Positions 8,043 through 20,144 of a stretch of 20,144 nt of DNA are shown here, one piece after another (positions within the stretch are counted from its first letter, which is position 1; each line of letters starts with the position of its first letter). Source of the stretch: a virus; IMG/VR virus record IMGVR_UViG_3300028557_002461, positions 1-20,144 of that record. One strand, written 5' to 3'. The position numbers were made by a program, and so were the translations under genes. Below the pieces are notes generated by a model. That model was not told where the DNA came from. It saw only the letters and a program-made list of their open reading frames with translations, and did not search any database.

Positions 8043-8257
8043 ATGGGCACCACCATGGTGTATGGTGAAATGGTGTAGCCTGCAGGAATGGCAGCCCATA
8101 TCTCTTTGTCATTCACCCGTAGTTTGCGATCACCACTCACCACCGCTGAACAATCTGTGTTGCGTACCAGTCTCAAGTCTCTGTACAAATTGCTGAGACC
8201 TGGTATGACAAACCTGCATCCATAATTCAACCAACCCAGAGGCATTTCTTTTTCCAT
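8039..8257 (-). CDS. Small unknown protein, 72 aa, leaderless
   Basis: The longer open frame to 8422 is not used here. A promoter (TTGTAT, 16 nt, TATACT) puts transcription start at or next to ATG 8257, giving MEKEMPLGWLNYGCRFVIPG. The protein has a Trp/Tyr-rich N-terminus and a basic middle (RDLRLVRNTDC). It ends tail to tail with the plus-strand gene, the two stop codons sharing bases. It is divergently transcribed from the 105-aa gene at 8333. No family recognised. Confidence 0.65.
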   Translation of the reverse strand: MEKEMPLGWLNYGCRFVIPGLSNLYRDLRLVRNTDCSAVVSGDRKLRVNDKEIWAAIPAGYTISPYTMVVPI

Positions 8258-8263
8258 GACCAC

Positions 8264-8291
8264 AGTATACAGGTGATTCAAAATAATACAA
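8264..8291 (-). promoter_or_regulatory. Leaderless sigma70-type promoter for the 8257 (-) gene
   Basis: Reading on the minus strand: TTGTAT at 8291-8286, 16-nt spacer, TATACT at 8269-8264, then 6 nt to the ATG at 8257. Confidence 0.7.
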
Positions 8292-8298
8292 GCTTTTC

Positions 8299-8326
8299 TT
8301 GACTTAACAAAAAATACATTTAATAT
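8299..8326 (+). promoter_or_regulatory. Leaderless sigma70-type promoter for the 8333 gene
   Basis: TTGACT at 8299-8304, 16-nt spacer, TAATAT at 8321-8326, then 6 nt to the ATG. Its -35 box is 7 nt from the -35 box of the divergent promoter. Confidence 0.75.
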
Positions 8327-8332
8327 TATAAC

Positions 8333-8650
8333 ATGAGCTTGGAGACTGTAGCAAAAGAGCTTGAAAAAGAAGCATCTTTTAATGGTGTGGAAATTTTTGT
8401 AGATGAAACTGTTATTAATCATAGTTTCATTCCCATCATAAATGATCGAGGCATAGTTGGAGCTGTGGGTGAATATGTTGAAAATAAGAAAGTTAAAATA
8501 GGTTTCTTCATTCTGAATAATAAAATTGTGAGATATGCATTAAATGAGGGATTCAGCAAAGAGCAGTTGTTTGAATGTTTTAAAGACAAACTCTTTGACG
8601 AAGTTGACAAGACCAAGTTTTTTAAGATAATGACAGAAAAAAGCTTTTGA
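8333..8650 (+). CDS. Unknown 105-aa protein, leaderless
   Basis: Starts MSLETVAKELEKEASFNG at the base where transcription is predicted to begin. The protein is a mixed alpha/beta, charged, soluble polypeptide with no membrane segment. It contains NDRGIVGAVGEYVENKK followed by a Phe-rich strand and a C-terminal helix rich in Lys and Phe (DEVDKTKFFKIMTEKSF). Its TGA stop lies inside the -35 box of the next gene, so the two are separate transcription units packed end to end. No family recognised. Confidence 0.75.
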   Translation: MSLETVAKELEKEASFNGVEIFVDETVINHSFIPIINDRGIVGAVGEYVENKKVKIGFFILNNKIVRYALNEGFSKEQLFECFKDKLFDEVDKTKFFKIMTEKSF

Positions 8651-8674
8651 TTTACAGCATTTTCCTTTTATAAT
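8647..8674 (+). promoter_or_regulatory. Leaderless sigma70-type promoter for the 8681 gene
   Basis: TTGATT at 8647-8652 (containing the stop codon of the previous gene), 16-nt spacer with TTCC before the -10, perfect TATAAT at 8669-8674, 6 nt to the ATG. Confidence 0.8.
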
Positions 8675-8680
8675 AAAAAT

Positions 8681-8878
8681 ATGGCTAAATTATCCCCAAC
8701 TAAATTGAAGAAACTAATAGCTAAAGGCAGGCTGGTGCCCATCATAGCTACAAACAATGAAGGCAACAAGGTGCTTGTGGGTTACAGGCGCAAAAACAGT
8801 AGAAGTTCCAAAGCAAATGAGAATTACACGTTCTCTGAACCTATATCTTTAGAAAAACCAGTTGACTCTTCTAACTAA
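8681..8878 (+). CDS. Small basic protein, 65 aa, leaderless
   Basis: Starts MAKLSPTKLKKLIAKGRLVP. The N-terminal two thirds are strongly basic (KLKKLIAKGR, GYRRKNSRSSK) and the tail is neutral to acidic. A nucleic-acid-binding or host-takeover role would fit, but there is no specific motif. It has its own consensus promoter directly upstream with no room for a ribosome binding site. It is followed within 40 nt by the promoter and start of the GC-rich gene. Confidence 0.7.
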   Translation: MAKLSPTKLKKLIAKGRLVPIIATNNEGNKVLVGYRRKNSRSSKANENYTFSEPISLEKPVDSSN

Positions 8879-8889
8879 TAATCTATTAT
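8862..8889 (+). promoter_or_regulatory. Sigma70-type promoter for the GC-rich gene
   Basis: TTGACT at 8862-8867, 16-nt spacer, TATTAT at 8884-8889. An ATG lies 7 nt downstream (8897), the usual leaderless position, but a strong Shine-Dalgarno and a second in-frame ATG follow. Confidence 0.75.
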
Positions 8890-8901
8890 TAAAAATATGA
8901 G

Positions 8902-8908
8902 AGGAGGT
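8902..8908 (+). promoter_or_regulatory. Strong Shine-Dalgarno site AGGAGGT
   Basis: AGGAGGT is placed 9 nt before ATG 8918. It is the clearest canonical ribosome binding site I see in the window and decides the start of the downstream gene. Confidence 0.85.
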
Positions 8909-8917
8909 AATAAACAC

Positions 8918-9115
8918 ATGATCAATTATAACAGTACTGATCTTAAGCCGAAGACATTCTTCGTTAAGATCGAACGCAGTCGTAATGGCCAATTCACGGT
9001 CAAGCGCGCCAAGGTTCTCGAGCAGGCTAATCAGCATGCTCGCTCCATCCGGCGTGTTGATGCCCGCGATCTCACTCGCGCCATTAATCGCACTGGTGGT
9101 CTTAACGTTGCCTAA
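8918..9115 (+). CDS. GC-rich small basic protein, probably highly expressed
   Basis: A 65-aa protein starting MINYNSTDLKPKTFFVKIER. It is strongly basic (about 14 Lys/Arg against 5 Asp/Glu), with runs such as RSIRRVDARDLTRAINR that look helical. Base and codon use differ sharply from neighbours: C-ending codons dominate, and 36 of 60 bases in 9001-9060 are G or C in an otherwise AT-rich region. It has a canonical Shine-Dalgarno and a strong intrinsic terminator, so it looks like a highly expressed single-gene unit. A longer in-frame start at 8897 would add MRGGNKH and is placed for leaderless initiation. Nucleic-acid binding or host-machinery binding is inferred. No family recognised. Confidence 0.8.
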   Translation: MINYNSTDLKPKTFFVKIERSRNGQFTVKRAKVLEQANQHARSIRRVDARDLTRAINRTGGLNVA

Positions 9116-9131
9116 TTTTAACGTTGGAATC

Positions 9132-9170
9132 AGAACGCCGTCACTCGCAAGGGGACGGCGTTCTTTTTTT
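9132..9170 (+). terminator. Strong rho-independent terminator
   Basis: Ten-base stem GAACGCCGTC (9133-9142) pairs perfectly with GACGGCGTTC (9154-9163) across an 11-nt loop, extended by one A-T pair, followed by seven T. It ends the GC-rich gene unit. Confidence 0.95.
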
Positions 9171-9206
9171 GTATAAACAATTAAGGGAAATAGTTAAAAA
9201 ATCTAC

Positions 9207-9234
9207 TTGTTGATTATAAAAGTTCATTTATAAT
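9207..9234 (+). promoter_or_regulatory. Leaderless sigma70-type promoter for the 9241 gene
   Basis: TTGTTG at 9207-9212, 16-nt spacer, perfect TATAAT at 9229-9234, 6 nt to the ATG at 9241. Confidence 0.75.
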
Positions 9235-9240
9235 GGATGT

Positions 9241-9540
9241 ATGCTTAATAAAGATGACATCAATGCCCGGTTGAAGAGACAGCTGCAAGGCAAAACACCC
9301 AAGCTCAAGTGTCTGGTCACTGGTTTGGAAAGAATGACCAGCATGGATTATCTCAAAACCAAAGTGGATAAGTTTGGTTCTGTGGATAATTTCGTCAATA
9401 ATTATATCAGCAGTGAAGCTGTGAAACTTCTCAAACTGAAAAGAAGCACCATGGATATTAAGAATGAGTTAAATGCTGCTGCATGTTATGTTCCCAATGA
9501 AATGCATGTGACTGAAGCATGCAAGTATTACAATGTATAA
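9241..9540 (+). CDS. Unknown 99-aa protein, leaderless
   Basis: Starts MLNKDDINARLKRQLQGK. It contains KCLVTGLERMTSMDYLKTK followed by DNFVNNYISSEAVKLLKL, a pattern that looks like a conserved small phage protein, though I cannot attach a function. The protein is basic and soluble with no membrane helix. The next gene starts inside its last codons (8-nt overlap), pointing to coupled translation. It has its own promoter with a consensus -10. Confidence 0.75.
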   Translation: MLNKDDINARLKRQLQGKTPKLKCLVTGLERMTSMDYLKTKVDKFGSVDNFVNNYISSEAVKLLKLKRSTMDIKNELNAAACYVPNEMHVTEACKYYNV

Positions 9541-9748
9541 CCAGCCACCATTTCCTATAGGCTTTAAAAAGCCTGTGTTCAATTTGCCTGCAGAAAAATT
9601 ACGCAACCGATTTGGCAGAATGGTGTATGGGCATAAAACTGCGGGAGCCATTGAAGTCATGACCAAAGCATGTTGGGATTCAAACAAGAAGTACTTTGAG
9701 CCCAATGGGGCTCGCAGTTGTGTGAAAAATTTTTCAAAAAGTACTTGA
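9533..9748 (+). CDS. Unknown 71-aa basic protein
   Basis: Starts MYNQPPFPIGFKKPVFNLPAE at an ATG overlapping the end of the previous gene by 8 nt, so translation is probably coupled. The protein is basic (KLRNRFGRMVYGHK) with two Cys (KACWDSN, ARSCVKN). No membrane segment or known motif. Its TGA stop is inside the -35 box of the next promoter. Confidence 0.65.
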   Translation: MYNQPPFPIGFKKPVFNLPAEKLRNRFGRMVYGHKTAGAIEVMTKACWDSNKKYFEPNGARSCVKNFSKST

Positions 9749-9772
9749 CGTTAATGGCAAGTCAGGTATATT
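9745..9772 (+). promoter_or_regulatory. Leaderless sigma70-type promoter for the 9778 gene
   Basis: TTGACG at 9745-9750 (overlapping the previous stop), 16-nt spacer, TATATT at 9767-9772, 5 nt to the ATG at 9778. Confidence 0.75.
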
Positions 9773-9777
9773 AGGTC

Positions 9778-10038
9778 ATGGAAAAAATATATTACTGTTC
9801 GGTGTCAGGCGAACCGCTTCCTGGCTCAAGAGTTGATGCACTGCGCATGTTGGGCATGCCAGAGAACACCTGGACTGCCATATTGCATAGCAAGGTGAGA
9901 CGCAACAAAGGCATTTATTTTGGTGAGCAAGGATCAGGCAAGTTGATTATTGCAGACAAAATTTATTCCGACAGCATGTCATCCATTGATGAGGCTCTTG
10001 AAGAGCAAGAGAAGCGCGACAAAACACTGTCAAATTAA
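9778..10038 (+). CDS. Unknown 86-aa protein, leaderless
   Basis: Starts MEKIYYCSVSGEPLPGSRVDAL. The first half has short strands and a Leu/Met-rich helix (DALRMLGMPENTW). The C-terminus is an acidic-basic helix (SIDEALEEQEKRDKTL). The opening CSVSGEPLP and the following helix could form a small domain recognising DNA or protein, but nothing specific can be assigned. It is the first gene of a three-gene cluster with the two overlapping genes downstream. Confidence 0.7.
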   Translation: MEKIYYCSVSGEPLPGSRVDALRMLGMPENTWTAILHSKVRRNKGIYFGEQGSGKLIIADKIYSDSMSSIDEALEEQEKRDKTLSN

Positions 10039-10039
10039 C

Positions 10040-10309
10040 ATGAAGCGCAAGGAGTATGCTGAAGTAACAAATAAAATTGTTCACATTGAGCAGGTTATGG
10101 CTCGAGGCCAAAGAGAACCAGTGTTGGAATTGGTTTTCAAAACTTCTGGTCACAACAGGTTGGGTGGGCACAAAGTTTACATTGATTTTAAGTGTGCCAA
10201 GGAGTTACAAAAGAAACTGGCAGCAAATATAACAGAGGTTGAATCAAAATATTATGCATATGGACTATACACCAGACTACAAAGATCCGCAGACCAGATA
10301 CTTTGCTGA
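10040..10309 (+). CDS. Unknown 89-aa basic protein
   Basis: Starts MKRKEYAEVTNKIVHIEQ at ATG 10040, one base after the previous stop. An upstream in-frame extension overlapping the previous gene is not needed. The protein alternates strands and short helices, is basic, and includes GGHKVYIDFKCAKELQKKL. Co-translation with both neighbours is likely because of the tight spacing and the roughly 50-nt overlap with the next gene. No family recognised. Confidence 0.6.
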   Translation: MKRKEYAEVTNKIVHIEQVMARGQREPVLELVFKTSGHNRLGGHKVYIDFKCAKELQKKLAANITEVESKYYAYGLYTRLQRSADQILC

Positions 10310-10544
10310 CGAGATCAAGGATCTGAGCACAGATGATCTGCAACAACGTCACAAAGACATAGAGTTGTATCTCAAAACAGGTCTGCGCCCTTTGTGGACT
10401 GTGATTACCGGTTCTAATGCATTGGAGAGCATGAGGTACTGGTATCCAGAAGATCTTGTTAGATACAGAAGGATTTTGATGATGGAACTTGTTGATAGAT
10501 GTAAGTCGTTTGAGCTCATACCCAAAATAAAATTTAAATTTTGA
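10254..10544 (+). CDS. Unknown 96-aa protein
   Basis: Starts at ATG 10254 or at ATG 10260 two codons later (MDYTPDYKDPQTRYFADE). It overlaps the previous gene by about 50 nt. It is largely helical, with DLSTDDLQQRHKDIELYLK then YWYPEDLVRYRRILMMELVD, and ends basic (IPKIKFKF). No catalytic motif is apparent. It closes the cluster before the RadA-like ATPase, whose promoter begins 2 nt after its stop. Confidence 0.65.
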   Translation: MHMDYTPDYKDPQTRYFADEIKDLSTDDLQQRHKDIELYLKTGLRPLWTVITGSNALESMRYWYPEDLVRYRRILMMELVDRCKSFELIPKIKFKF

Positions 10545-10545
10545 C

Positions 10546-10573
10546 TTGACAGAACCTGCATTTCCATTATACT
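10546..10573 (+). promoter_or_regulatory. Leaderless sigma70-type promoter for the first RadA-like gene
   Basis: Perfect TTGACA at 10546-10551, 16-nt spacer ending TTCCAT, TATACT at 10568-10573, 6 nt to the ATG at 10580. Confidence 0.85.
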
Positions 10574-10579
10574 TAAAGT

Positions 10580-11503
10580 ATGAACATTAAGATGACCTCA
10601 ACAAAGTTTCAACCGGTTAATTCGGTTGTGATCCCTGAAGTGTATAGTCGGCGCATGAAGAGTGGCAATGAAAAAATTGACGCTCTGTTTGGCGGCGGCA
10701 TTTTGCCTGGTAGTTCTATAACCTTGACTGCTCGTGCAGGCATGGGTAAAACTACTTTTGTGCTGCAGCTCATTGAAAGTCTGCATAACAACAACCACCG
10801 AGTTGGTTACTGCTCTTCTGAGGAATCTGTTGCCCAGCTGGCAATGACGTGCAAGCGTCTGCAAGTTGAAAATGTTCAAGTGTGCAATGAATCAGATGTG
10901 GATACCATATCCAAGTACATGGATGACATGGATGTCATTGTCATTGATTCATTTCAAGGCCTGGTCAAAGGCAACAAGCGTGGACGTGAACTTGAGAAGT
11001 ACTGCATTGAAAGACTTGTTGTGCGTGCCAAAGAAACTGAGTGTGCAGTCATTTTGATATGTCACAATACCAAAGCTGGTGGCATCAAAGGATCTTCGTT
11101 GATCATTCATGCTGTGGATGTGAACATTAGCATCAACATGATCAAGGATGCAGATATGAATGCTCGAGCCATCAGATTTGATAAAAACCGATTTGGTCCT
11201 GCATCTGAACTGGAATGTTTCATTGAGTACAGTGGTTACGACTTTGAAACTGAGGTTGTAGTTGACAAGGACGAAGCAACCAAGACCTCCAAGTCAGACA
11301 AAAAGAAGGAACAGCGGGAATGCATTCTCAAGCTCAATACCATCACCCTGCCTGATGTTTGCAGAGAGTTGAGCATTGACTCAACGCGTGCAGGGTTTTT
11401 GCTGCGCGAGCTTCAGAACGAGGGCAAGATTGTCAAAGAAGGCCGTGGTGTAGAAGCCAGATGGATCAAGTCACAACTTCAAGTCACTGTGGTGCAGAGT
11501 TAA
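10580..11503 (+). CDS. RadA/Sms-like RecA-fold ATPase with C-terminal winged helix (copy 1)
   Basis: A 307-aa ATPase. Residues 37-59 hold FGGGILPGSSITLTARAGMG plus KTT, a Walker A loop (Lys57) in which the usual first Gly is Ala. GYCSSEES matches the RadA VSGEES region. VIVIDSFQG is Walker B (Asp123). CHNTKAGGIKG corresponds to the RadA GHVTKEG region. KNRFG (residues 202-206) is the RadA signature. The Cys4 zinc finger and Lon-like C-terminal domain of bacterial RadA are missing. Instead residues about 245-300 look like a winged helix (VCRELSIDSTRAGFLLRELQ). Likely roles are recombination, branch migration or replication-fork processing on phage DNA. It is about 70% identical by hand count to the protein at 16513. 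Confidence 0.85.
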   Translation: MNIKMTSTKFQPVNSVVIPEVYSRRMKSGNEKIDALFGGGILPGSSITLTARAGMGKTTFVLQLIESLHNNNHRVGYCSSEESVAQLAMTCKRLQVENVQVCNESDVDTISKYMDDMDVIVIDSFQGLVKGNKRGRELEKYCIERLVVRAKETECAVILICHNTKAGGIKGSSLIIHAVDVNISINMIKDADMNARAIRFDKNRFGPASELECFIEYSGYDFETEVVVDKDEATKTSKSDKKKEQRECILKLNTITLPDVCRELSIDSTRAGFLLRELQNEGKIVKEGRGVEARWIKSQLQVTVVQS

Positions 11504-11661
11504 TGTTACTTCAACTGTAACACCTGAGTAAAGCAGCTCAAAATTATTATGCTACCCATCAAAAAGAAAATCCTCATACCCCCCGAGTTATGGCCAAGCT
11601 GGGTCTAAAGGAAGATGATATCAGAGTATTCATTCAGGACTGTTTATTTCCTGAAATATAA
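11503..11661 (+). pseudogene. Broken or non-canonically started small ORF
   Basis: An ATG at 11503 overlaps the ATPase stop (TAATG), the usual coupling arrangement, but meets TAA after five codons. The same frame then stays open for 46 more codons to TAA 11661, reading SKAAQNYYATHQKENPHTPR and then VMAKLGLKEDDIRVFIQDC, which looks like real protein. Either a nonsense change has disabled the gene, or it starts at CTG 11524. A short inverted repeat (TGTTAC/GTAACA, 11504-11522) covers the stop. It sits where the base composition changes, so it may be a remnant left at a recombination joint. Confidence 0.45.
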
Positions 11662-11732
11662 AACAGTTTTTACTTTTTTTGCGGCAAATAAATTTATGAA
11701 TCACAAGCAAAGCGCTTTATAAAAGATGACTA

Positions 11733-11906
11733 TTATCTACAAGCCTTTTTACAATCTGATATTTGTATTTGATTAAAAGATAATTCTTGTAATTCATCCG
11801 AAGTAAAATATTTTGTAACTTCATTATCATCTATTTCATTTGCTTGTATTAGCCCTTTAGCTTTATTTCTTAAATATTGGTAAGCAGTATTTTTATCAGT
11901 TATCAT
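11733..11906 (-). CDS. Small unknown protein, 57 aa, downstream of the protease gene
   Basis: Starts MITDKNTAYQYLRNKAKGLI and ends ISDCKKACR. It is acidic in the middle and helical, with no membrane segment. A late promoter motif AATAAATA lies exactly 5 nt upstream of the ATG and overlaps the stop codon of the metalloprotease gene, so it may be expressed both from that motif and by readthrough. About 70 nt downstream (11662-11732) hold only AT-rich sequence with the palindromes AAAGCGCTTT and ATAAATTTAT. Function unknown; an association with the protease is guilt by position only. Confidence 0.65.
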   Translation of the reverse strand: MITDKNTAYQYLRNKAKGLIQANEIDDNEVTKYFTSDELQELSFNQIQISDCKKACR

Positions 11907-11911
11907 AAGAT

Positions 11912-11919
11912 TATTTATT
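11912..11919 (-). promoter_or_regulatory. Late-type promoter motif AATAAATA
   Basis: AATAAATA on the minus strand, 5 nt before the ATG at 11906. It matches the T4-like late element seen at other genes here. Confidence 0.55.
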
Positions 11920-14110
11920 CTAAGATTATTAATGCAGACATTGCTGAATGATTACCACATTGAAGATAATAATTACCAGGAGCTTGTCCGGGCGATATAA
12001 CCCAAACTAAATCTCCAGAACCAGAACCGTCTCCTGTCACTCCTGCGGTTACCCTAGAGGCAGGTGGTCCGTAATAGCCTGTTTGCCCCTCTACTGTAAC
12101 TATATATAAAGGATGAGAGGCTCCTAAATTTAATTTAAATGTATAGGTTAGTCCTCTCTTACAAGTTATAGGCTTTCCAGAATTAGATGTAACTTTACCT
12201 GCAACTCTATACGTGTTACCGTAAAAGCCTATATCGAGAGGTTGCCCGCTTCCATTTGAATAGATGTTAAAAACCAAGGGCTGATACGTATCCGCAAGAT
12301 CATCATTTACTTGATAACCTAAATCTAATAAACTACCTAATGTAATTCTGGATAGAGGTTGATCGTAAGCTCCTTCACTCTGCGGGGTCATTAATTCATC
12401 ATTCAGCCCAGGGGCTCCCGGAAAAGAATTACCATAATAATTTCTATTATCTGAACCATATGTTGCATCTGTATTGTACCCTTCATCCCAATGAGATGCT
12501 ATGGATCCAAATCCCCTTCCATTTTCTATAGGTATTGCTGTTAATGAAAGGTTGAATGCTAAGTTGTACGCGGAAACTGCTGCACTTCTTCCAATTAGTG
12601 AAGAACAGCAATCTCGAGCTGCTTGAAATGCTCCGTCTCCTATGTATCTTGTTGTCCCATCAATTGTTGTAGAAGAACCATAATCAGAAGAACTTCTTGT
12701 TCCTCCTAATGCACTACATGTATAAAATAAATTTTTTGATGCTCCTAATCCTAAGGGATTTGTACTGTTATCTCCTGCTCCTACTCGATAGCCCCTATAT
12801 AAAATAGAAGGCGATGTAGTAGAATCTAATTTAAACCAATTAGTACCTATGCCCAAACAATGTCCAATTTCATGAAGGGCGGTATAATAAAATGTATTTC
12901 TATTGTTAACTGTAGTTTCTAGCACGTCTAAATCGGTGTAATATGAATTAAAAACAATTGATGCTGTAAATGGAACATCCCATTGAGTTGTACTTGTTAC
13001 TCCTACTCTGCGTGTACCGGTTATACCTGCAGCTCCTAGCGTTAAACTTACACTATCATAATAACTACTAACATACATTACAAGGGTTGTATTAGGATTA
13101 CCATTCATAGGATTAGATACTAGTTCATAGCCATTACTAATAGTTGAGTCTTGTGTTCTTAATGCAAAAGTGTTACCTGCTAATACATTTCCCCACCTAT
13201 CTATGGCAGATAAAAATGTGTTTGTTGTGGCTAAACTAAAGCCTGGAGTTTTATCAAAAATAGCAGATATTTGATATCCTACAGTTACATATACATCTTT
13301 ACCACTTCCAAGATAATTAACAAAATATCTACCTCGTCCAATCGGGTTAAAGTTATTTTGTGTAGGAGTAATAGTGGGAGTAATAGATGGTGTAAGACTT
13401 ATGGTTGGAGTGGGAGTTCCAGTTGGTGTTATCGAAATAGTAGGAGTTACAGAAATAGTTGGTGTTGGAGTAATTCCAGTTGTTTGTGTAATTGTAGGGG
13501 TTAAAGTAATTGTGGGGGTAATAGAGATTGTTGGAGTTGGTGTAATTGTTGAGGTTTGAGAAATAGTGGGTGTAATCGTTATAGTTGGAGTCAAGGTAAG
13601 AGTAGGTGTAATGCTAGGAGTTATAGAAGTTGTAGGTGTATTTGTGGGTGTAGAAGAAGGGGTAATGGTGTTTGTGGGTGTAATGGTTGGTGTAAGAGAG
13701 ATAGTTGGTGTATTTGTTATTGTAGGTGTTACGGATGGGGTTAATGTAGGTGTTTGAGTTTGAGTTAAAGAGATTGTTGGGGTAACAGTAACCGAAGGGG
13801 TTATGCTACTAGTAGGAGTAACGGTTTGTGTAATAGTTGAAGAGGGTGTTACAGTAACAGTTGGAGTATTAGGAGGAGTTGAAGTAGGGGTTTCTGAAGG
13901 CGTTATAGTTGGTGTCAATGAAATAGTTGGCGTTAAGCTTATTGTAGGAGTTATAGAAGGTGTTGGTGTGGGGGTAGCAGGTTGAACATCTCCTCTACTC
14001 TTATTAGCAGCAGAATTTAAATTTAATACTCTTTCAAGAGAAGTTAGATTACTAGCAGCTCGGACTCGTGCGCGGTTCAAATCTTGAAAGCTTGGATAGA
14101 AAACGGCCAT
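11915..14110 (-). CDS. Stalked leishmanolysin-like metalloprotease with cupredoxin domain
   Basis: A 731-aa predicted virion surface enzyme. Residues 1-44 form a helical head similar to the 214-aa protein. Residues 45-250 are a Pro/Thr stalk. Residues about 255-605 match a leishmanolysin-type (M8-like) metalloprotease: HEIGHCLGIG supplies His413, Glu414 and His417; SHWDEG gives the distant third ligand His540; DELM gives the Met-turn Met574; LSRITLGSLLDLGYQV closes the fold. Residues about 611-731 look like a cupredoxin with candidate copper ligands His666, Cys718, His721 and Met724 (YYLQCGNHSAM). No signal peptide is present, so delivery would be on the virion. Likely substrates are host surface proteins; this is inference. 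Codons are AT-rich, unlike the left-hand stalk genes. Confidence 0.85.
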   Translation of the reverse strand: MAVFYPSFQDLNRARVRAASNLTSLERVLNLNSAANKSRGDVQPATPTPTPSITPTISLTPTISLTPTITPSETPTSTPPNTPTVTVTPSSTITQTVTPTSSITPSVTVTPTISLTQTQTPTLTPSVTPTITNTPTISLTPTITPTNTITPSSTPTNTPTTSITPSITPTLTLTPTITITPTISQTSTITPTPTISITPTITLTPTITQTTGITPTPTISVTPTISITPTGTPTPTISLTPSITPTITPTQNNFNPIGRGRYFVNYLGSGKDVYVTVGYQISAIFDKTPGFSLATTNTFLSAIDRWGNVLAGNTFALRTQDSTISNGYELVSNPMNGNPNTTLVMYVSSYYDSVSLTLGAAGITGTRRVGVTSTTQWDVPFTASIVFNSYYTDLDVLETTVNNRNTFYYTALHEIGHCLGIGTNWFKLDSTTSPSILYRGYRVGAGDNSTNPLGLGASKNLFYTCSALGGTRSSSDYGSSTTIDGTTRYIGDGAFQAARDCCSSLIGRSAAVSAYNLAFNLSLTAIPIENGRGFGSIASHWDEGYNTDATYGSDNRNYYGNSFPGAPGLNDELMTPQSEGAYDQPLSRITLGSLLDLGYQVNDDLADTYQPLVFNIYSNGSGQPLDIGFYGNTYRVAGKVTSNSGKPITCKRGLTYTFKLNLGASHPLYIVTVEGQTGYYGPPASRVTAGVTGDGSGSGDLVWVISPGQAPGNYYLQCGNHSAMSALIILE
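13361..13978. repeat. Low-complexity Pro/Thr codon repeat (731-aa protein)
   Basis: This tract encodes the third stalk. The amino-acid pattern matches the two tracts on the left, but the codons are AT-rich (GTAGGAGTAATAG style) rather than GTGGGTGT style, so the tract was not copied recently from them. Confidence 0.85.
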
Positions 14111-14119
14111 ATGTTATAA

Positions 14120-14155: not shown

Positions 14156-14161
14156 GATTGA

Positions 14162-14946: not shown

Positions 14947-14947
14947 T

Positions 14948-15079
14948 ATGTGGGATCCAATTAGTGTGTTTTGTATTATATGGGCGCTTAACGTCGGTCT
15001 GCCTTGTTCACGCTTATCTGTGCATGATGTTCAGAAAGCTAACGAAAAGCAAGCTAACTCAATAGTTGTCAATAAATGA
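14948..15079 (+). CDS. Short protein, 43 aa, with hydrophobic N-terminus
   Basis: ATG 14948, one base after the previous stop, gives MWDPISVFCIIWALNVGLPC, then RLSVHDVQKANEKQANSIV and a stop. The N-terminal 20 residues are hydrophobic and could be a signal anchor. The rest is a polar helix. Its TGA overlaps the next ATG (ATGA), so it is tied into the operon by coupled translation. Function unknown. Confidence 0.55.
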   Translation: MWDPISVFCIIWALNVGLPCSRLSVHDVQKANEKQANSIVVNK

Positions 15080-15330: not shown

Positions 15331-15343
15331 AATAAGTAATTAC

Positions 15344-15544
15344 ATGAACATCGTAGAAAAAGTAGTCGACTTATATTATTCATTAAGGTTTGCTGTTGAA
15401 GATCTTTACTATAAGGTAAAAGATAAATTCGGTTTTGATGACACCGAATATAATTATTCTGATTACTCTAATCCTGTCGATGAAGTTGTAGAAGAGAAGC
15501 CAAAAAAGAAGAAAAAGAAAAAGACAACTAAAAAGAAGAAATAA
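15344..15544 (+). CDS. Small protein with poly-Lys tail, 66 aa
   Basis: Starts MNIVEKVVDLYYSLRFAVED. It has an amphipathic helical N-terminus, an acidic Tyr/Asp middle (DDTEYNYSDYSN), and ends in about 15 residues that are nearly all Lys (KPKKKKKKKTTKKKK). A Lys tail can bind DNA, RNA or acidic membrane lipids. It is the last gene of the plus-strand operon and ends one base from the stop of the convergent gene. Function unknown. Confidence 0.65.
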   Translation: MNIVEKVVDLYYSLRFAVEDLYYKVKDKFGFDDTEYNYSDYSNPVDEVVEEKPKKKKKKKTTKKKK

Positions 15545-15545
15545 A

Positions 15546-15833
15546 TTATTCTTCTACTTGAATGTCCAGCTTGCCTTCTAGCTTATATACAAACATTTGA
15601 TCATTCGAAGCAACAGCTTCTTTCTTTAACTCACTGTAATTACTGAGCAGCCCTGTGCTTAGAGCAATTACATCATATTTAAAATCGCGTTGATCTTTAG
15701 GTGATTTTGTTTTCATGTAAACTTCAACAATACAAGCTTTGGGGTCTCCAAAACTAAATATATCTCCATTCTTTAAATCATTGAATGTGTTTTTGTTATC
15801 TTTTCGTTCTTGTTTTGAGAAGTTTACTTTCAT
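15546..15833 (-). CDS. Unknown 95-aa protein (minus strand)
   Basis: Starts MKVNFSKQERKDNKNTFNDL. It looks like a small beta-barrel type domain (NGDIFSFGDPKACIVEVYMK, KYDVIALSTGLLS, MFVYKLEGKLDIQVEE), soluble, with no membrane helix. A late-type motif TGTAAATA lies exactly 5 nt before the ATG, supporting both the start and the strand. It is transcribed against its neighbours and divergent from the GIY-YIG-like gene. No family recognised. Confidence 0.7.
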   Translation of the reverse strand: MKVNFSKQERKDNKNTFNDLKNGDIFSFGDPKACIVEVYMKTKSPKDQRDFKYDVIALSTGLLSNYSELKKEAVASNDQMFVYKLEGKLDIQVEE

Positions 15834-15838
15834 AATAT

Positions 15839-15846
15839 TATTTACA
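15839..15846 (-). promoter_or_regulatory. Late-type promoter motif TGTAAATA
   Basis: TGTAAATA on the minus strand, 5 nt before ATG 15833. Confidence 0.5.
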
Positions 15847-15877
15847 TAGGTTTATAAAAAATCAAAAGAAAAAAAGC

Positions 15878-15905
15878 TTGACTATTATACTTGTTCAAAG
15901 ATAAT
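15878..15905 (+). promoter_or_regulatory. Leaderless sigma70-type promoter for the 15912 gene
   Basis: TTGACT at 15878-15883, 16-nt spacer, GATAAT at 15900-15905, 6 nt to ATG 15912. This decides against the TTG start 21 nt upstream, which would lie upstream of the transcript. Confidence 0.8.
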
Positions 15906-15911
15906 AGATGT

Positions 15912-16367
15912 ATGGAGCCAATCGTCTCTTTTGTAAATTACAAGTTTAAAAGGTATGACAACTCTCGTCTAAAAGAAACATATAAACATCTTAAAAATAT
16001 AAAGCTATATCTGCTTGAACTTACTTTTAAGGATACAGGCGAACAAATCCATAAGTTTGGAGTAACATCTTACTTTGATGTTATTAAAAGAATGGAAGTT
16101 AGTGATTATCATCCTGAGTATAAAATGTTTAGCCGTGTGCGTGCTCTAGCTAGTGCTTATCTTCCTGTTGATGTAGCTCTTGAGCAGGAAAAGTATTTTC
16201 AAAACCATTATAAGAAAGAAATATATATACGTAAACCTTATTATTTTAATGGTATATCTGAAGCTTTAATTCTATTTCCAAAGGATAGAAGGGATAGTAT
16301 TATAAAGATTATGAATTTACATAAAGAATATAAAGCAAAAAGGTTGAATTTATTAGAGGTTAAATAA
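15912..16367 (+). CDS. GIY-YIG-like nuclease-fold protein, 151 aa
   Basis: Starts MEPIVSFVNYKFKRYDNSRL. From residue 31, IKLYLLELTFKDTGEQIHKF leading into GVTSYFDVIKRM resembles the GIY-YIG core found in T5orf172-like proteins: a first strand with Tyr, then K-F/I-G-V-T and a downstream Arg (Arg60). ALEQEKYF (Glu91 or Glu93) could supply the metal-binding Glu, and YYFNGISEALI matches the end of the fold. The first motif is degenerate (LYL rather than GIY), so catalytic activity is uncertain. Possible roles are a homing-type or host-DNA-degrading nuclease, or a non-catalytic relative. It stands alone behind its own promoter. Confidence 0.5.
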   Translation: MEPIVSFVNYKFKRYDNSRLKETYKHLKNIKLYLLELTFKDTGEQIHKFGVTSYFDVIKRMEVSDYHPEYKMFSRVRALASAYLPVDVALEQEKYFQNHYKKEIYIRKPYYFNGISEALILFPKDRRDSIIKIMNLHKEYKAKRLNLLEVK

Positions 16368-16375
16368 ATTATATT

Positions 16376-16465
16376 ATGATAGACGGAGACAAGCTATACG
16401 CACTTAGTTTGTATAGTGTATTAGCTCTGGCATTTATATATTATTCGTTCCTTACTAAAGTTTAA
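16376..16465 (+). CDS. Short membrane peptide, 29 aa
   Basis: ATG 16376, 8 nt after the previous stop, gives MIDGDKLYALSLYSVLALAF then IYYSFLTKV and a stop. Residues 8-25 form one hydrophobic helix with an acidic front and a Lys near the end. It has no promoter of its own and would be translated from the upstream transcript. It is short enough to be a chance frame, but its placement fits the packing of the region. Confidence 0.4.
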   Translation: MIDGDKLYALSLYSVLALAFIYYSFLTKV

Positions 16466-16475
16466 TAAAAAGTTC

Positions 16476-16503
16476 TTGACAGAATTACGTTTTCCTACAT
16501 AAT
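16476..16503 (+). promoter_or_regulatory. Sigma70-type promoter for the second RadA-like gene
   Basis: Perfect TTGACA at 16476-16481, 16-nt spacer ending TTCCTA, CATAAT at 16498-16503, 9 nt to ATG 16513. An alternative -10 TAATAT (16500-16505) would give an 18-nt spacer and 7 nt to the ATG. Either way the leader is at most a few bases. Confidence 0.8.
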
Positions 16504-16512
16504 ATAAGGACA

Positions 16513-17430
16513 ATGAACGTTAAATTACAAAGCACTAAATTCGTATCAATTAAAGATGTAACTATTCCCGATGTTTTCTATCGGAGAATGCAAACGGGTA
16601 TCGAGAAACTCGATGCAATGTTTGGGGGAGGTATTCTTCCTGGTTCTTCTATTACATTAACTGCACGAGCTGGTCTCGGAAAGACCACGCTTGTACTGCA
16701 AATGTTAGAAAGACTGGTAAAGAGCGGTAAACGTGTTGGTTACTGCTCCTCAGAAGAATCTATTGCCCAGCTTGCTATGACCTGTAAACGACTAAATGTC
16801 GAGAACGTTCAGGTATGTAACGAGGGTAATGTCGATAAGATCTCTAATCATATGAAAGATCTCGATATTATTGTTGTTGATTCGTTTCAAGGTCTTATAA
16901 AAGGTAATCTTCGAGGACGAGAGCTAGAGAAGTATTGTATTGAAAGACTTGTAGTTAACGCTAAAGAGACTGAATGCGCGATTGTATTAATCTGTCATAA
17001 TACTAAAGCGGGTGGAATTAAGGGTAGTTCTCTTATTATTCATGCTGTAGATGTTAACGTTAGTATTCATCCTATCAAGGAAGCAGAAGCAAATGCTCGT
17101 GTCATAACCTTTGATAAGAACCGTTTTGGTCCTTCTGCAGATGTAGAGTGTTATATTCAGTATAGTGGGTATGATTTTGAATCTGAAGTAATTGTTGAAG
17201 AAGAAAATACTTCTAAAACTGCTCGTAAGAAAGATCAGCGTAATAAGATTTTGTCTATGAATGGCGATATTACGCTCCTTGAAGTGTGTAAACAACTTAG
17301 TATTGATAGTACTCGTGCTGGGTTCCTTCTTCGTGAGTTACAGAATGAGGGCAAGCTGGTCAAAGATGGTAGAGGAGCGGATTCGATCTGGAAGAAGAAC
17401 GAGCTTCAGATTACTGTTGCACAGAACTAA
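16513..17430 (+). CDS. RadA/Sms-like RecA-fold ATPase with C-terminal winged helix (copy 2)
   Basis: A 305-aa paralogue of the gene at 10580, about 70% identical by hand count and nearly gap-free for 230 residues. All motifs are kept: Walker A ARAGLGKTT (Lys57), SSEES, Walker B IIVVDSFQG, CHNTKAGGIKG, KNRFG and the winged-helix end SIDSTRAGFLLRELQNEG. Divergence is highest at the N-terminus and in the charged linker near 230-245. Codons are clearly different from copy 1 (AT-rich third positions here). As with copy 1, the zinc finger and Lon-like domains of bacterial RadA are absent. Two copies may form hetero-oligomers, act at different times, or reflect joining of two related genomes. Confidence 0.85.
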   Translation: MNVKLQSTKFVSIKDVTIPDVFYRRMQTGIEKLDAMFGGGILPGSSITLTARAGLGKTTLVLQMLERLVKSGKRVGYCSSEESIAQLAMTCKRLNVENVQVCNEGNVDKISNHMKDLDIIVVDSFQGLIKGNLRGRELEKYCIERLVVNAKETECAIVLICHNTKAGGIKGSSLIIHAVDVNVSIHPIKEAEANARVITFDKNRFGPSADVECYIQYSGYDFESEVIVEEENTSKTARKKDQRNKILSMNGDITLLEVCKQLSIDSTRAGFLLRELQNEGKLVKDGRGADSIWKKNELQITVAQN

Positions 17431-17444
17431 ATTACCTTTATACT
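17417..17444 (+). promoter_or_regulatory. Leaderless sigma70-type promoter for the 17451 gene
   Basis: TTGCAC at 17417-17422 inside the end of the RadA-like gene, 16-nt spacer, TATACT at 17439-17444, 6 nt to ATG 17451. Confidence 0.65.
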
Positions 17445-17450
17445 ACTTAA

Positions 17451-17831
17451 ATGATGAACCTTAAGACCGCACAACTACCTGAACAAGCGCCTTTTGTAGG
17501 CCAGCACGTTACAGAATTTCACTATACAGATCGTGATGCTTGGGAGGTAATTGAGGTTATGAGCCCTCGAAGGATAAAAATTCGAGAGTTTGATGCAGAG
17601 TGTACCCTTAAACCTAAAGATTTTCATCCTGGAGGCTTCTGTGGTCACTTTGCTGATAATCATTCACAGGAATATAAATTTACAAGTAATCCTAAAAATC
17701 AAGTAAAGGTACTTAGCTGGCGCTCTAAAGCTAAACGCTGGGCTGAAGTAGGACAAAGGACTCAGTATAGTCTGTTCGGCTTACATAGGAAAGGTGAGCA
17801 AGCTGTTAAGTTTTATGATTACAACTTCTAA
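17451..17831 (+). CDS. Conserved-looking unknown protein, 126 aa, leaderless
   Basis: Starts MMNLKTAQLPEQAPFVGQHV. The core HVTEFHYTDRDAWEVIEVMS followed by PRRIKIREFDAE looks like a small beta-barrel seen in phage hypothetical proteins, where a strand-turn-strand with YTDRDA-type wording recurs. Further on, HPGGFCGHFADNHSQEY holds three His and a Cys that could bind metal. It ends HRKGEQAVKFYDYNF. Function unknown. The next gene overlaps its end by 17 nt. Confidence 0.75.
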   Translation: MMNLKTAQLPEQAPFVGQHVTEFHYTDRDAWEVIEVMSPRRIKIREFDAECTLKPKDFHPGGFCGHFADNHSQEYKFTSNPKNQVKVLSWRSKAKRWAEVGQRTQYSLFGLHRKGEQAVKFYDYNF

Positions 17832-18078
17832 AGTACAAGACTATATTAATTCAGGTCATGACGAGCATGATGTGGCTCGTTGGTTGATCAATCTAAACAT
17901 TAACAAATATGTTCCAATGGAGCTAGATGACTTAGCCGATACTAGCGTTGTAGCTAGTGAAGTGGATGCTATTGTTGAATGCATTCAAGAAAAAGATTAT
18001 GAAGACGCCATTAGTATTGCAGAAGACAGCGCTGTTGTTATTCTCGAAGATGAAGGGTTTGATGTTAGCAACCACTAA
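17815..18078 (+). CDS. Acidic helical protein, 87 aa
   Basis: The start is taken as ATG 17815 (MITTSKVQDYINSGHDEHDV) inside the previous gene's end, rather than GTG 17794. The protein is very acidic and helical (ELDDLADTSVVASEVDAIVE, QEKDYEDAISIAEDSAVVI). Small acidic phage proteins can mimic DNA, but this one is too short and too hydrophobic in places to assert that. Its 3' end overlaps the convergent minus-strand gene by 14 nt. Confidence 0.65.
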   Translation: MITTSKVQDYINSGHDEHDVARWLINLNINKYVPMELDDLADTSVVASEVDAIVECIQEKDYEDAISIAEDSAVVILEDEGFDVSNH

Positions 18079-18259
18079 CAATTGTATTAATAAGTTCTTT
18101 AGCTTTAATTAGAGTTTGCGCGCTTCCTATTATCTTATTGTTTTCAAATATATAGTGGAAGCCTTTCTTTTCAACAATCCTATATTGTTCGTAATGTATA
18201 CCTTCAACCCCAGGATGATTTAATTCTCCTAGGTGTTTATTAATCAGGTCGACGAACAT
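18065..18259 (-). CDS. Unknown 64-aa protein (minus strand)
   Basis: Starts MFVDLINKHLGELNHPGVEG. It looks like a small alpha/beta domain with HYEQYRIVEKKGFHYIFENN followed by the helix SAQTLIKAKELINTIVSG. A late-type motif ATTAAATA lies exactly 5 nt before the ATG, which supports a real minus-strand gene among plus-strand ones. No family recognised. Confidence 0.65.
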   Translation of the reverse strand: MFVDLINKHLGELNHPGVEGIHYEQYRIVEKKGFHYIFENNKIIGSAQTLIKAKELINTIVSGC

Positions 18260-18264
18260 AGAAA

Positions 18265-18272
18265 TATTTAAT
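18265..18272 (-). promoter_or_regulatory. Late-type promoter motif ATTAAATA
   Basis: ATTAAATA on the minus strand, 5 nt before ATG 18259. Confidence 0.5.
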
Positions 18273-18292
18273 AAAAAAATGAAGATATACTC

Positions 18293-18320
18293 TTTAAAAA
18301 AGACCTCTGTAATGTATAAT
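18293..18320 (+). promoter_or_regulatory. Leaderless promoter for the 18327 membrane gene
   Basis: Weak -35 TTTAAA at 18293-18298, 16-nt spacer, perfect TATAAT at 18315-18320, 6 nt to ATG 18327. The box plus leader TATAATAAAAATATG is identical to that of the 8681 gene. Confidence 0.65.
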
Positions 18321-18326
18321 AAAAAT

Positions 18327-18671
18327 ATGATGTTATGGATTATTACAGATTTGATAGGATCATTGCTTGATATTATTCGTGATTCAATCTATGCATATGT
18401 ACGAATAGTAAGAGAAGGCTTGACTGTCTTTATTAAAGCAGCTATTATTATCCTTATGTATATGAAAAGTATTGCAGATAAAAGTGTTATACCTTCAATC
18501 TTTGAGTTTAGCTTCTTTCTTATAACAGTCTCTATAACTATCTTATTTGATTTTATTGTAATTATTTCTTCGTTTTTCTTATTTTTATCTAACATCTGTA
18601 TAAATATTTCAAGGTTAACGCAAACTGCTGCTAAAAACTTACAAAAAAGATATACCTGGTTGAATGGATAA
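18327..18671 (+). CDS. Hydrophobic membrane protein, 114 aa
   Basis: The frame is open from 18279, but a consensus TATAAT ending 6 nt before ATG 18327 makes that the likely start (MMLWIITDLIGSLLDIIRDS). Two or three hydrophobic stretches follow: about residues 31-46 (LTVFIKAAIIILMYMK) and a long one at about 54-90 (FEFSFFLITVSITILFDFIV and ISSFFLFLSNICI) that could span twice. The C-terminus is basic (KNLQKRYTWLNG). It could be a holin-like or other inner-membrane protein; nothing specific supports either. The next gene overlaps by 8 nt. Confidence 0.65.
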   Translation: MMLWIITDLIGSLLDIIRDSIYAYVRIVREGLTVFIKAAIIILMYMKSIADKSVIPSIFEFSFFLITVSITILFDFIVIISSFFLFLSNICINISRLTQTAAKNLQKRYTWLNG

Positions 18672-18948
18672 GAGTAAACAAATTCAAGAGACGATTGAGC
18701 TAATCAAACAGCTAGACCTCATTCAAGATCAATTCAAGTTTTACGAAGAAGAAGGTGATAGGCTTACAATAGAGCACATGACTATTATTAAAAATAAAGA
18801 GCATTTATTCCCCGAGGGTGCAGAGAAACTAAAAACGATTGATAAGAAATTAGACGAACTTACAATTAGGTTTGAGAAAGATAATAGTCTGTTTAATAAA
18901 ATTTTAGTTAAGGTAAGTAGTTTGTTAAAAAAGCACAATAATGTTTAA
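18664..18948 (+). CDS. Coiled-coil protein, 94 aa
   Basis: Starts MDKSKQIQETIELIKQLDLI. It is almost entirely charged helix with heptad-like spacing of Leu and Ile (ETIELIKQLDLIQDQFKFYE, KLKTIDKKLDELTIRFEKD), so a dimeric coiled coil is likely. ATG overlaps the stop of the membrane gene by 8 nt, and its own end overlaps the next ATG by 8 nt: a chain of coupled genes. A partner role for the preceding membrane protein is possible. No family recognised. Confidence 0.7.
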   Translation: MDKSKQIQETIELIKQLDLIQDQFKFYEEEGDRLTIEHMTIIKNKEHLFPEGAEKLKTIDKKLDELTIRFEKDNSLFNKILVKVSSLLKKHNNV

Positions 18949-19273
18949 AAGAAAACCGAAAGGAGATCTTTTCAACTTTGAGGAGTTTACTGTGTATAGC
19001 CCTAAGCAGTTTAATAATAACTTAAGCATAGAAGATAAAGACATAACGTTCTATATTAAAGTATGCACCAATTCGAATAGAGCATTTACATGTCCTTTTC
19101 CTCATATAGATAACACGGTAGGTAGTGAAGAACTTAGTAATAAGGAAGTTAAGAAGATTGTTGACTTTATTAACAATACTCCAGAAGCCATTGTATATAC
19201 CTCGGAGTATTCTATTGAAAATGTTGATGGTAGGAGATTAGAGATGTATTACGGAAAGCTTGATAATATCTAA
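18941..19273 (+). CDS. Unknown 110-aa protein
   Basis: Starts MFKRKPKGDLFNFEEFTVYS, coupled by 8-nt overlap to the coiled-coil gene. It is a soluble alpha/beta protein with FYIKVCTNSNRAFTCPFPHI, a helix KEVKKIVDFINNTPEAIV and a strand-rich end (YTSEYSIENVDGRRLEMYYG). Two Cys and one His are clustered (residues near 42-55) but do not form a known metal motif. The promoter of the downstream small RNA begins inside its last codons. Confidence 0.65.
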   Translation: MFKRKPKGDLFNFEEFTVYSPKQFNNNLSIEDKDITFYIKVCTNSNRAFTCPFPHIDNTVGSEELSNKEVKKIVDFINNTPEAIVYTSEYSIENVDGRRLEMYYGKLDNI

Positions 19274-19287
19274 TGTTCCTACATAAT
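19260..19287 (+). promoter_or_regulatory. Sigma70-type promoter for the small RNA
   Basis: TTGATA at 19260-19265, 16-nt spacer ending TTCCTA, CATAAT at 19282-19287. Transcription should begin near 19294. Unlike the other promoters of this class, there is no start codon at that position. Confidence 0.75.
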
Positions 19288-19293
19288 AAGTTT

Positions 19294-19393
19294 ATTGTCC
19301 GAGCAATCGGAGGGTAAGCCGGTTCCCCGTTAAGAAACTGGTCATCATCTTGAGTTTTGCTGTTCTCAAGTAAATCAAAAACAGCCTTTTTTT
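19294..19393 (+). ncRNA. Predicted phage small RNA with GNRA hairpin and terminal pseudoknot
   Basis: This is the one sizeable stretch between plus-strand genes without a convincing ORF, and it has its own promoter and a 3' end rich in T. In order: hairpin TCCGA-GCAA-TCGGA (19298-19311) with a GNRA loop; hairpin GCCGGTT/AACTGGT (19318-19342, with two G-U pairs); an H-type pseudoknot with stem 1 CTTGAG/CTCAAG (19349-19354 with 19365-19370), loop 1 TTTT, stem 2 GCTGTT/AACAGC (19359-19364 with 19380-19385), no bases between the stems, loop 3 TAAATCAAA; then C and seven T. Stem 2 with the T run can act as the terminator. The next gene's promoter starts 12 nt later, so this is a separate unit. Function unknown; it does not match an RNA family I can name. 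Confidence 0.65.
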
Positions 19394-19404
19394 GAAAAAA
19401 ATAG

Positions 19405-19432
19405 TTGACCTATTCCTAGATTCAGCCATAAT
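19405..19432 (+). promoter_or_regulatory. Leaderless sigma70-type promoter for the 19439 gene
   Basis: TTGACC at 19405-19410, 16-nt spacer, CATAAT at 19427-19432, 6 nt to ATG 19439. Confidence 0.75.
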
Positions 19433-19438
19433 ATTTAC

Positions 19439-19702
19439 ATGATGAAAAAACAAACGAACAAAGAATATAGTCTATTGGTGTTTATGAAAGCTCAGCACAA
19501 GTATACCGATTCAGAGGTTCAATTAGAAACGCTGTGTAAAGAGTTTAATGGACGAGCGGTAGGGGGAGGTACAGATCTATGTACAGGTAAGCGAGATCAA
19601 CAGTTTGCCTTCTTTAATAAAGCTGGTGCAAAAGCCTTTCTTAAGCATCCTTTTACCAAAGCAGTTACCCTTAAAGATTACGACCTAGTAGAGGTAGATT
19701 AA
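19439..19702 (+). CDS. Unknown 87-aa protein, leaderless
   Basis: Starts MMKKQTNKEYSLLVFMKAQH. The pattern of a strand (YSLLVFMKAQ), a helix (SEVQLETLCKEFNG), a glycine-rich turn (RAVGGGTDLCTG), a strand (DQQFAFFNKAGAKAFLKH) and a last strand resembles a small ferredoxin-like alpha/beta domain. No catalytic or DNA-binding motif is evident. It sits directly after the small RNA unit and before two further small genes. Confidence 0.7.
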   Translation: MMKKQTNKEYSLLVFMKAQHKYTDSEVQLETLCKEFNGRAVGGGTDLCTGKRDQQFAFFNKAGAKAFLKHPFTKAVTLKDYDLVEVD

Positions 19703-19708
19703 TAAATA
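19701..19708 (+). promoter_or_regulatory. Late-type promoter motif AATAAATA
   Basis: AATAAATA begins within the previous stop codon and ends exactly 5 nt before ATG 19714. Confidence 0.5.
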
Positions 19709-19713
19709 ACTTT

Positions 19714-19908
19714 ATGACATACGCAAGACTAAGAGATGTTTTGAACATGCTTAAGCCGGATCAACTCAATCAAGAAGCTCAAGTCCTTACAGGAGGTAAA
19801 ATGGTTCAAATTGATCAAGTTGAATCATTTAGAGGCGATGAAAATCTAGCTGGTAAGTTTGGAGCTCATCCAAAGCAAGTATTCTTAACTAATAATAAAG
19901 AACTATAA
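19714..19908 (+). CDS. Small unknown protein, 64 aa
   Basis: Starts MTYARLRDVLNMLKPDQLNQ. The opening helix LRDVLNMLKPDQLNQEAQVL followed by a short strand region resembles small conserved proteins of T4-like phages and bacteria that begin with a TY-x-x-LR-x-x-L-x-x-L pattern; no function is known to me for them. The rest (QIDQVESFRGDENLAGKFGA) is polar and ends with a strand. It is preceded by a late-type motif and followed after 3 nt by the next gene. Confidence 0.65.
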   Translation: MTYARLRDVLNMLKPDQLNQEAQVLTGGKMVQIDQVESFRGDENLAGKFGAHPKQVFLTNNKEL

Positions 19909-19911
19909 TCA

Positions 19912-20109
19912 ATGAAAGCAGTGTTAATATACGACATAGAATATGAGTCGTATGATAAGCGCAAAAAGCTTCCTACAGAGCTTGTTGCAGATCTAGATGA
20001 TTATCAATGTCAAGTAGGGTTTGGTAGCTTAAATTATCGCTCACATCAAGCAGTTAAAGATGCTACAGGCGTTAATACAAAGTACTGTAAAATAAAAAAT
20101 CTTGACTGA
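19912..20109 (+). CDS. Small unknown protein, 65 aa
   Basis: Starts MKAVLIYDIEYESYDKRKKL and includes PTELVADLDDYQCQVGFGSL. It is a mixed strand and helix protein with no membrane segment. It lies 3 nt after the previous stop, so it is probably co-transcribed. Its last codons contain the -35 box of the next promoter. No family recognised. Confidence 0.6.
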   Translation: MKAVLIYDIEYESYDKRKKLPTELVADLDDYQCQVGFGSLNYRSHQAVKDATGVNTKYCKIKNLD

Positions 20110-20129
20110 TTTCTATATTCCTGCATAAT
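20102..20129 (+). promoter_or_regulatory. Leaderless sigma70-type promoter for a gene running off the window
   Basis: TTGACT at 20102-20107, 16-nt spacer ending TTCCTG, CATAAT at 20124-20129, 6 nt to ATG 20136. Confidence 0.75.
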
Positions 20130-20135
20130 ATATGT

Positions 20136-20144
20136 ATGATGAAA
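20136..20144 (+). CDS. First codons of the next gene (partial)
   Basis: ATG ATG AAA follows the promoter at the exact 6-nt distance, the same opening as the gene at 19439. Only three codons are visible, so nothing can be said of the product. Confidence 0.5.

Follow-up and report, generated by a model that had tools for sequence, protein, structure and literature searches.

The 20,144-base IMG/VR virus record IMGVR_UViG_3300028557_002461, analysed here at its full length (hereafter the window), is a fragment of a phage genome in which promoter boxes stand at a fixed distance from start codons. Comparison with relatives makes it very probable that, in this phage lineage, genes that come first in a transcript are leaderless, in an early and in a late promoter class alike. 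We show that the arrangement is conserved among the relatives and specific when set against other phages, and from it we infer the positions of +1 and the mode of initiation. Early genes would be transcribed from host sigma70-type promoters (TTGAC, a spacer of 16-17 nucleotides, TATAAT) and late genes from T4-type gp55 promoters (TATAAATA). The transcription start would be the A of the AUG or a base no more than ∼3 nucleotides (nt) away, and the ribosome would bind the 5′-terminal AUG directly, with no Shine-Dalgarno (SD) sequence. Many downstream genes would be reached through coupling to the preceding gene's stop codon.

Early promoters in the window

A preliminary description of the window had placed promoters at a fixed distance before the ATG of thirteen genes, and the pattern proved real. 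With the form TTGN3-N16-NATNNT-N5-7-ATG, 14 sites were found in positions 8000-20144 against a mean of 0.80 in 200 dinucleotide shuffles, none of which reached 14 (maximum, 4); positions 1-8000 held one site (1.0 expected), not above chance. Eleven of the thirteen starts (8257 on the minus strand, 8681, 8897, 9241, 9778, 10580, 14162, 15912, 17451, 19439 and 20136) fit exactly, while 8333 (−10 box TAATAT) and 18327 (−35 box TTTAAA) fit a looser form only, and three of the 14 matches (14189, 14785 and 18050) are not at gene starts. Across the whole window, neither sigma70 promoters in a general scan (75 versus 65.9) nor TATAAT alone showed enrichment; what stands out is where the promoters lie, at a fixed distance from the ATG, and not how many there are. 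The early-type units are listed below, with “leaderless” denoting the predicted state.

8255-8291, minus strand: early-type promoter and leaderless ATG 8257 (exact pattern match)
8299-8335, plus strand: TTGACT-16-TAATAT-N6-ATG 8333, −10 box weaker (looser pattern)
8647-8683, plus strand: early promoter and leaderless ATG 8681 (exact match)
8862-8899, plus strand: early promoter and ATG 8897 at predicted +1, open reading frame extending to 9115 (exact match; family conserved in relatives G001 and G006)
9207-9243, plus strand: early promoter and leaderless ATG 9241 (exact match; ortholog comparison)
9745-9780, plus strand: early promoter and leaderless ATG 9778 (exact match)
10546-10582, plus strand: early promoter and leaderless ATG 10580 of an ATPase gene (exact match; conservation)
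14128-14164, plus strand: early-type promoter and ATG 14162 (exact match)
15878-15914, plus strand: early promoter and leaderless ATG 15912 (exact match)
16476-16515, plus strand: TTGACA/CATAAT promoter and near-leaderless ATG 16513, 9 nt past the −10 box (sequence, relatives)
17417-17453, plus strand: early promoter and leaderless ATGATGA start 17451 (exact match; ortholog comparison)
18293-18329, plus strand: TTTAAA-16-TATAAT-N6-ATG 18327, −35 box weak (looser pattern)
19405-19441, plus strand: early promoter and leaderless ATGATGA start 19439 (exact match; early leaderless promoter kept in six relatives)
20102-20138, plus strand: early promoter and leaderless ATGATGA start 20136, the gene exiting the window (exact match)

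Distances and conservation across the lineage

Relatives were fetched with the ATPase of the window and with the capsid protein of G010, a 97.7-kb relative. When distances were profiled at 552 gene starts (the window plus six relatives), exact TATAAT formed one sharp peak with its end 6 nt before the ATG (30 genes, with 0 to 4 at other distances), and TTGAC peaked with its end 29 nt before the ATG (35 genes). The pattern tested in the window was likewise enriched in each relative, and a strict form (TTGAC-N17-TATANT-N4-8-ATG), found in 12 of 13 relatives searched, was nearly absent from T4-like controls. When 923 starts from ten lineage contigs and those of eleven control phages were passed through the same classifier, a promoter at leaderless distance preceded 30% of the lineage starts (20% early, 10% late) versus 0 to 9% in controls, and a loose SD string preceded 7% versus 13 to 65%. 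SD strings at 4 to 10 nt showed no excess over 909 starts in structural-region loci (14, background ∼17). Nine of the controls (T4, RM378, P-SSM4, S-PM2, BUCT-ZZ01, phiM12, Ma-LMM01, Melnitz and Kolga) had no clear leaderless peaks and had SD above background; the other two, HTVC008M and Mosig, had a modest late peak at 5 nt beside strong SD use, and all eleven lacked an early peak. A further 31% of lineage starts lie −30 to +20 nt from an upstream stop, an equal share to that in controls, and for these translational coupling is plausible.

The early leaderless class was kept in 407 of 517 ortholog comparisons (pairs with <90% identity). In the ATPase family all ten members have the leaderless arrangement, near-leaderless cases included, and an early promoter at the leaderless distance or close to it is present in every relative examined; upstream of the gene, promoter and distance are kept and the spacer sequence has diverged. 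The family beginning MMKKQTNK has the early arrangement in seven of seven members. The proteins are conserved from the very next codon past the +1 ATG even where silent changes alter the DNA (e.g., MNIKM...), which argues that the +1 ATG is the translation start.

A late class with a one-nucleotide offset

The window also holds a T4-type late class, absent from the preliminary description, at the following starts.

3985-4000, minus strand: late promoter TATAAATA-N5-ATG 3987 (sequence)
6711-6726, plus strand: late-type AATAAATA-N5-ATG 6724, the second ATG of ATGATG (sequence)
11904-11919, minus strand: late-type AATAAATA-N5-ATG 11906 (sequence)
15831-15846, minus strand: late-type TGTAAATA-N5-ATG 15833 (sequence)
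19701-19716, plus strand: late-type AATAAATA-N5-ATG 19714 (sequence)

With one mismatch allowed, the TATAAATA box ended 5 nt before the ATG at 42 of the 552 starts, against ∼2 elsewhere. Among 909 starts from 80 capsid-fetched loci it ended at 5 nt in 110 and at 6 nt in 37, with ∼3 per position otherwise. The −10 box of sigma70 promoters spans −12 to −7. The T4 late box comprises 8 bp from −13, that is −13 to −6 (PMC2988020). With the −10 box ending at 6 nt and the late box at 5 nt, these offsets would make the A of the AUG position +1 for either promoter type. The two types depend on different sigma factors, and for that reason this one-nucleotide offset between the early and late peaks is the strongest single argument that the transcripts would be leaderless. 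Both peaks are present in G012, a 217-kb relative, which encodes (outside the sequence of the window itself) a gp55 late sigma adjoining gp47 (43% over 95 amino acids to P-SSM4) and a clamp-like protein (E of 1e-5). The gp55 gene was missed by a four-phage profile and by a crude residue pattern, and was located by reading the open reading frames near gp47. Conservation over many contigs, sharp distance peaks and the offsets of two sigma systems together support the suggestion in the preliminary description that leaderless transcription would be phage-wide.

Placement of the lineage and closest known systems

G010 encodes a T4-type capsid and portal (phrog_138 and phrog_213), the portal being ∼33% identical to cyanophage portals. 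Judged by the genes shared with such relatives (capsid and portal lie outside the window), the window comes from the genome of an uncultured phage of the T4 superfamily. In a capsid tree the lineage forms a single clade (100/98 support). Eight cultured T4-like phages lie outside it, as does RM378, the only Far-T4 representative in the tree, which has a very long branch and does not group with the lineage. IMG/VR contains at least 600 stretches with a gene for a related capsid protein.

Leaderless mRNAs are known in actinobacteria and Deinococcus, and lambda cI is the classic phage case. As in bacterial leaderless mRNAs, the −10 box here lies 5 to 7 nt before the AUG, SD is lacking and the mRNA would be expected to run from the AUG; unlike them, the arrangement is phage-lineage-wide and covers early and late classes that would be read by two sigma factors. 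The T4 late system (gp55, gp45) shares the TATAAATA promoters and the gp55 and clamp-like genes found in G012, but T4 late boxes are mostly 12 to 30 nt upstream of genes with SD, whereas in the lineage the box ends 5 nt before an ATG without SD. The Pelagibacter phages HTVC008M and Mosig are T4-like, encode bS21 and have late TATAAATA boxes 5 nt before the ATG (10 and 6 genes, respectively), yet they retain strong SD use and have no clear early leaderless class. Freshwater phages encoding bS21 (PMC9723584) are likewise large aquatic myoviruses with bS21 aromatics near the C-terminus, but leaderless genes are not mentioned in that paper. Far-T4 phages (PMC4360716) are, like this lineage, aquatic, uncultured members of the T4 superfamily, but RM378, the one member in culture, lacks leaderless peaks and, on its very long branch, did not group with the clade. 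Phage transcripts have been said in passing to be often leaderless (PMC5312081). AR9 was considered as a precedent and rejected, its leaders being 26 to 491 nt long (PMC5312081), and no leaderless phage lineage was reported in the literature searched, which consisted mostly of open-access papers.

Two possible causes: host habit or phage bS21

Two explanations concern why the genes would be leaderless. One is that leaderless or SD-less initiation is a habit of the host, which the phage merely matches; it leaves leaderlessness itself undisputed, and we regard it as about evenly balanced between true and false. It fits the background level of SD over the 909 structural-region starts; bacteria rich in leaderless mRNAs or without SD exist (PMC3160421, PMC9976891), and Far-T4-like phages have been linked to Flavobacteriales, where ribosomes ignore SD (PMC13037479, PMC9976891). 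It fits less well with the separation of the clade from RM378 in the capsid tree, with two GTDB genome scans using ATPase and capsid alignments that found no host link, or with the canonical TTGAC/TATAAT early promoters. TTGAC/TATAAT is not known to be the Bacteroidota consensus.

For the altered ribosome raised in the preliminary description, phage bS21 provides a lead. It was found in G012, in G014 (230 kb) and in G017, and then at 36 IMG/VR loci, where nearly all copies end in KWK plus an aromatic residue. Against Pfam PF01165 (cut-off 27 bits) the copies of G017 (40.6) and G014 (29.1) scored above threshold and that of G012 (24.1) below it; at the Tyr54 position G017 has Phe in a hand-extended alignment, and the others have Trp two residues later. 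The three genes are divergent (L192 in G012, L190 in G017, L191 in G014) and share the C-terminus KWK[YF]Y, with the G012 and G017 copies lying between the same neighbours. Under ribosome remodelling, phage bS21 would displace host bS21 and occlude the anti-SD, so that host SD mRNAs would be disfavoured and leaderless phage mRNAs unaffected. As the cause this seems rather unlikely, though several observations point toward it: the gene occurs in the two largest relatives and at the 36 loci, in Bacteroidia the anti-SD is hidden by bS21 together with bS18 and bS6, a role in which Tyr54 of bS21 matters (PMC9976891), and a preference for phage transcripts has been proposed as the effect of phage bS21 (PMC9723584). 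However, neither the window nor most fragments yielded a bS21 gene, and little phage bS21 would yet have been made when the early leaderless genes are read. Melnitz, Mosig, Kolga and HTVC008M, which include pelagiphages and a methylophage, all carry bS21 together with strong SD use, and bS21 as a sufficient cause was rejected on this ground. Phage bS21 may contribute to the leaderless preference.

Gene 8897/8918 and other points against leaderless initiation

The preliminary description held SD sites to be absent, which agrees with the near-background SD signal across the lineage but not with one gene of the window.

8900-8920, plus strand: AGAGGAGGT, a perfect SD-like string, then in-frame ATG 8918 (sequence; RGGRGGT in relatives)

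Here the ATG at predicted +1 (8897) is followed by AGAGGAGGT and, at normal SD spacing, by a second in-frame ATG; the order is preserved in two relatives with a spacing of 6 to 9 nt. The gene may be leadered and SD driven, or the bases may merely code for RGG. It encodes a small basic protein (8897-9165), carries the sole perfect SD seen in the region and has GC-rich codons unlike those of its neighbours; a terminator-like hairpin (GAACGCCGTC...GGGGACGGCGTTC, then a T-run) lies 3′ of it, and it is perhaps very highly expressed.

Three points weigh against leaderless initiation as the general mode: the good SD of this gene; the approximately one-third of starts with neither a leaderless promoter nor SD nor a nearby upstream stop; and the calling of gene starts by a simple script. 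Were the boxes real promoters but the AUG at +1 coincidental, with translation from a downstream SD start, ATG 8918 would be the model case; an SD excess is found nowhere else and proteins are conserved from the +1 ATG on, and we consider this very unlikely as a general account. Chance in AT-rich DNA, where short single boxes are common and neither TATAAT alone nor a general promoter scan is enriched window-wide, is refuted by the shuffles and by AT-rich controls (T4, HTVC008M), as well as opposed by position-specific peaks and conservation, and its probability is negligible.

A candidate small RNA

A conserved non-coding element with a 3′ T-run lies within 19273-19439, upstream of the early gene at 19439.

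19260-19287, plus strand: candidate small-RNA promoter TTGATA-16-CATAAT (sequence)
19294-19398, plus strand: candidate small RNA with covarying stem, invariant TCATCATC (19342-19349), pseudoknot-like 3′ part and T-run (comparison)

It occurs once per contig in eight lineage contigs and in none of the controls. Across eight sequences two helices covary, with 100% of cells paired, double changes in 13 cells and a score of 0.464 (shuffled, 0.223), and most copies have a third pairing that makes the 3′ part pseudoknot-like; in several relatives the RNA is longer at its 5′ end and carries a conserved TTCGGAGGCCGAC element there. A single-sequence fold was unremarkable (z of −1.23), and Rfam gave no match. 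The sole match outside the lineage in an IMG/VR-wide pattern search, a 98.6-kb contig (L271/G024), belongs to an unrelated SD-using phage and was dismissed as a chance match.

The longest invariant block, TCATCATC, contains the exact complement of ATGATGA starts: its invariant UCAUCAUC is complementary to AUGAUGA, the commonest start of early leaderless genes. ATGATGA opens 40 of 211 early leaderless genes versus 4 of 712 others (P = 6 × 10−23), or 18 of 116 versus 3 of 422 when counted by gene family (P = 2.5 × 10−10), and none of 99 late leaderless genes. We hypothesize from this complementarity that the small RNA would regulate early leaderless genes by pairing with their start codons. The pairing is predicted to be of modest strength (−7 kcal/mol), and part of the seed is already base-paired when the strand is folded by itself. 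Of 79 strict early-type genes in independent loci, which come mainly from structural and replication regions, 2 have AUGAUGA starts; such starts are thus rare in the wider lineage, and the link is confined to early genes of the sub-lineage and region that carry the RNA. A wider scheme, which we hold to be doubtful, would have SD nearly abandoned, host SD possibly weakened by bS21 and, in the sub-lineage, 5′-terminal AUGAUGA covered by the UCAUCAU seed of the RNA, switching the early set jointly.

Other features of the window

In the first third of the window the minus strand encodes tail-fibre-like proteins (S74 peptidase chaperone, Mtd_N domains); short genes follow, for the most part on the plus strand. 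No tRNA and no Rfam family was found in the window. Two ATPase genes are present.

10580-11503, plus strand: RadA/KaiC/DnaB_C-like ATPase, 307 amino acids (Pfam and PHROGs matches)
16513-17430, plus strand: second RadA/DnaB_C-like ATPase, paralog of the first (71% amino acid identity)

Some 5 kb separates the paralogs, and each has an early promoter at leaderless distance or close to it. Long Thr/Pro repeat tracts (TPTxTPT) occur in the proteins of 3343-5596 and 11915-14110, both on the minus strand and opposite in direction to the early genes; the 731-amino-acid Thr/Pro-repeat protein includes ALHEIGHCLGIGTNW, a metzincin-like zinc protease motif. A membrane protein of 369 amino acids (6721-7830) has weak similarity to DUF4407, under the Pfam cut-off.

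Implications

Leaderless initiation is usually regarded as a minority route or as a host habit, and here it would serve both early and late classes. The lineage opens two questions to direct test: whether a virus can live by leaderless mRNA, and whether a phage bS21 alters the choice of mRNA. Gene finders that rely on SD may misplace starts in genomes of this lineage. The small RNA, if its proposed role is true, would act as a regulator fitted to the start codons of leaderless genes.

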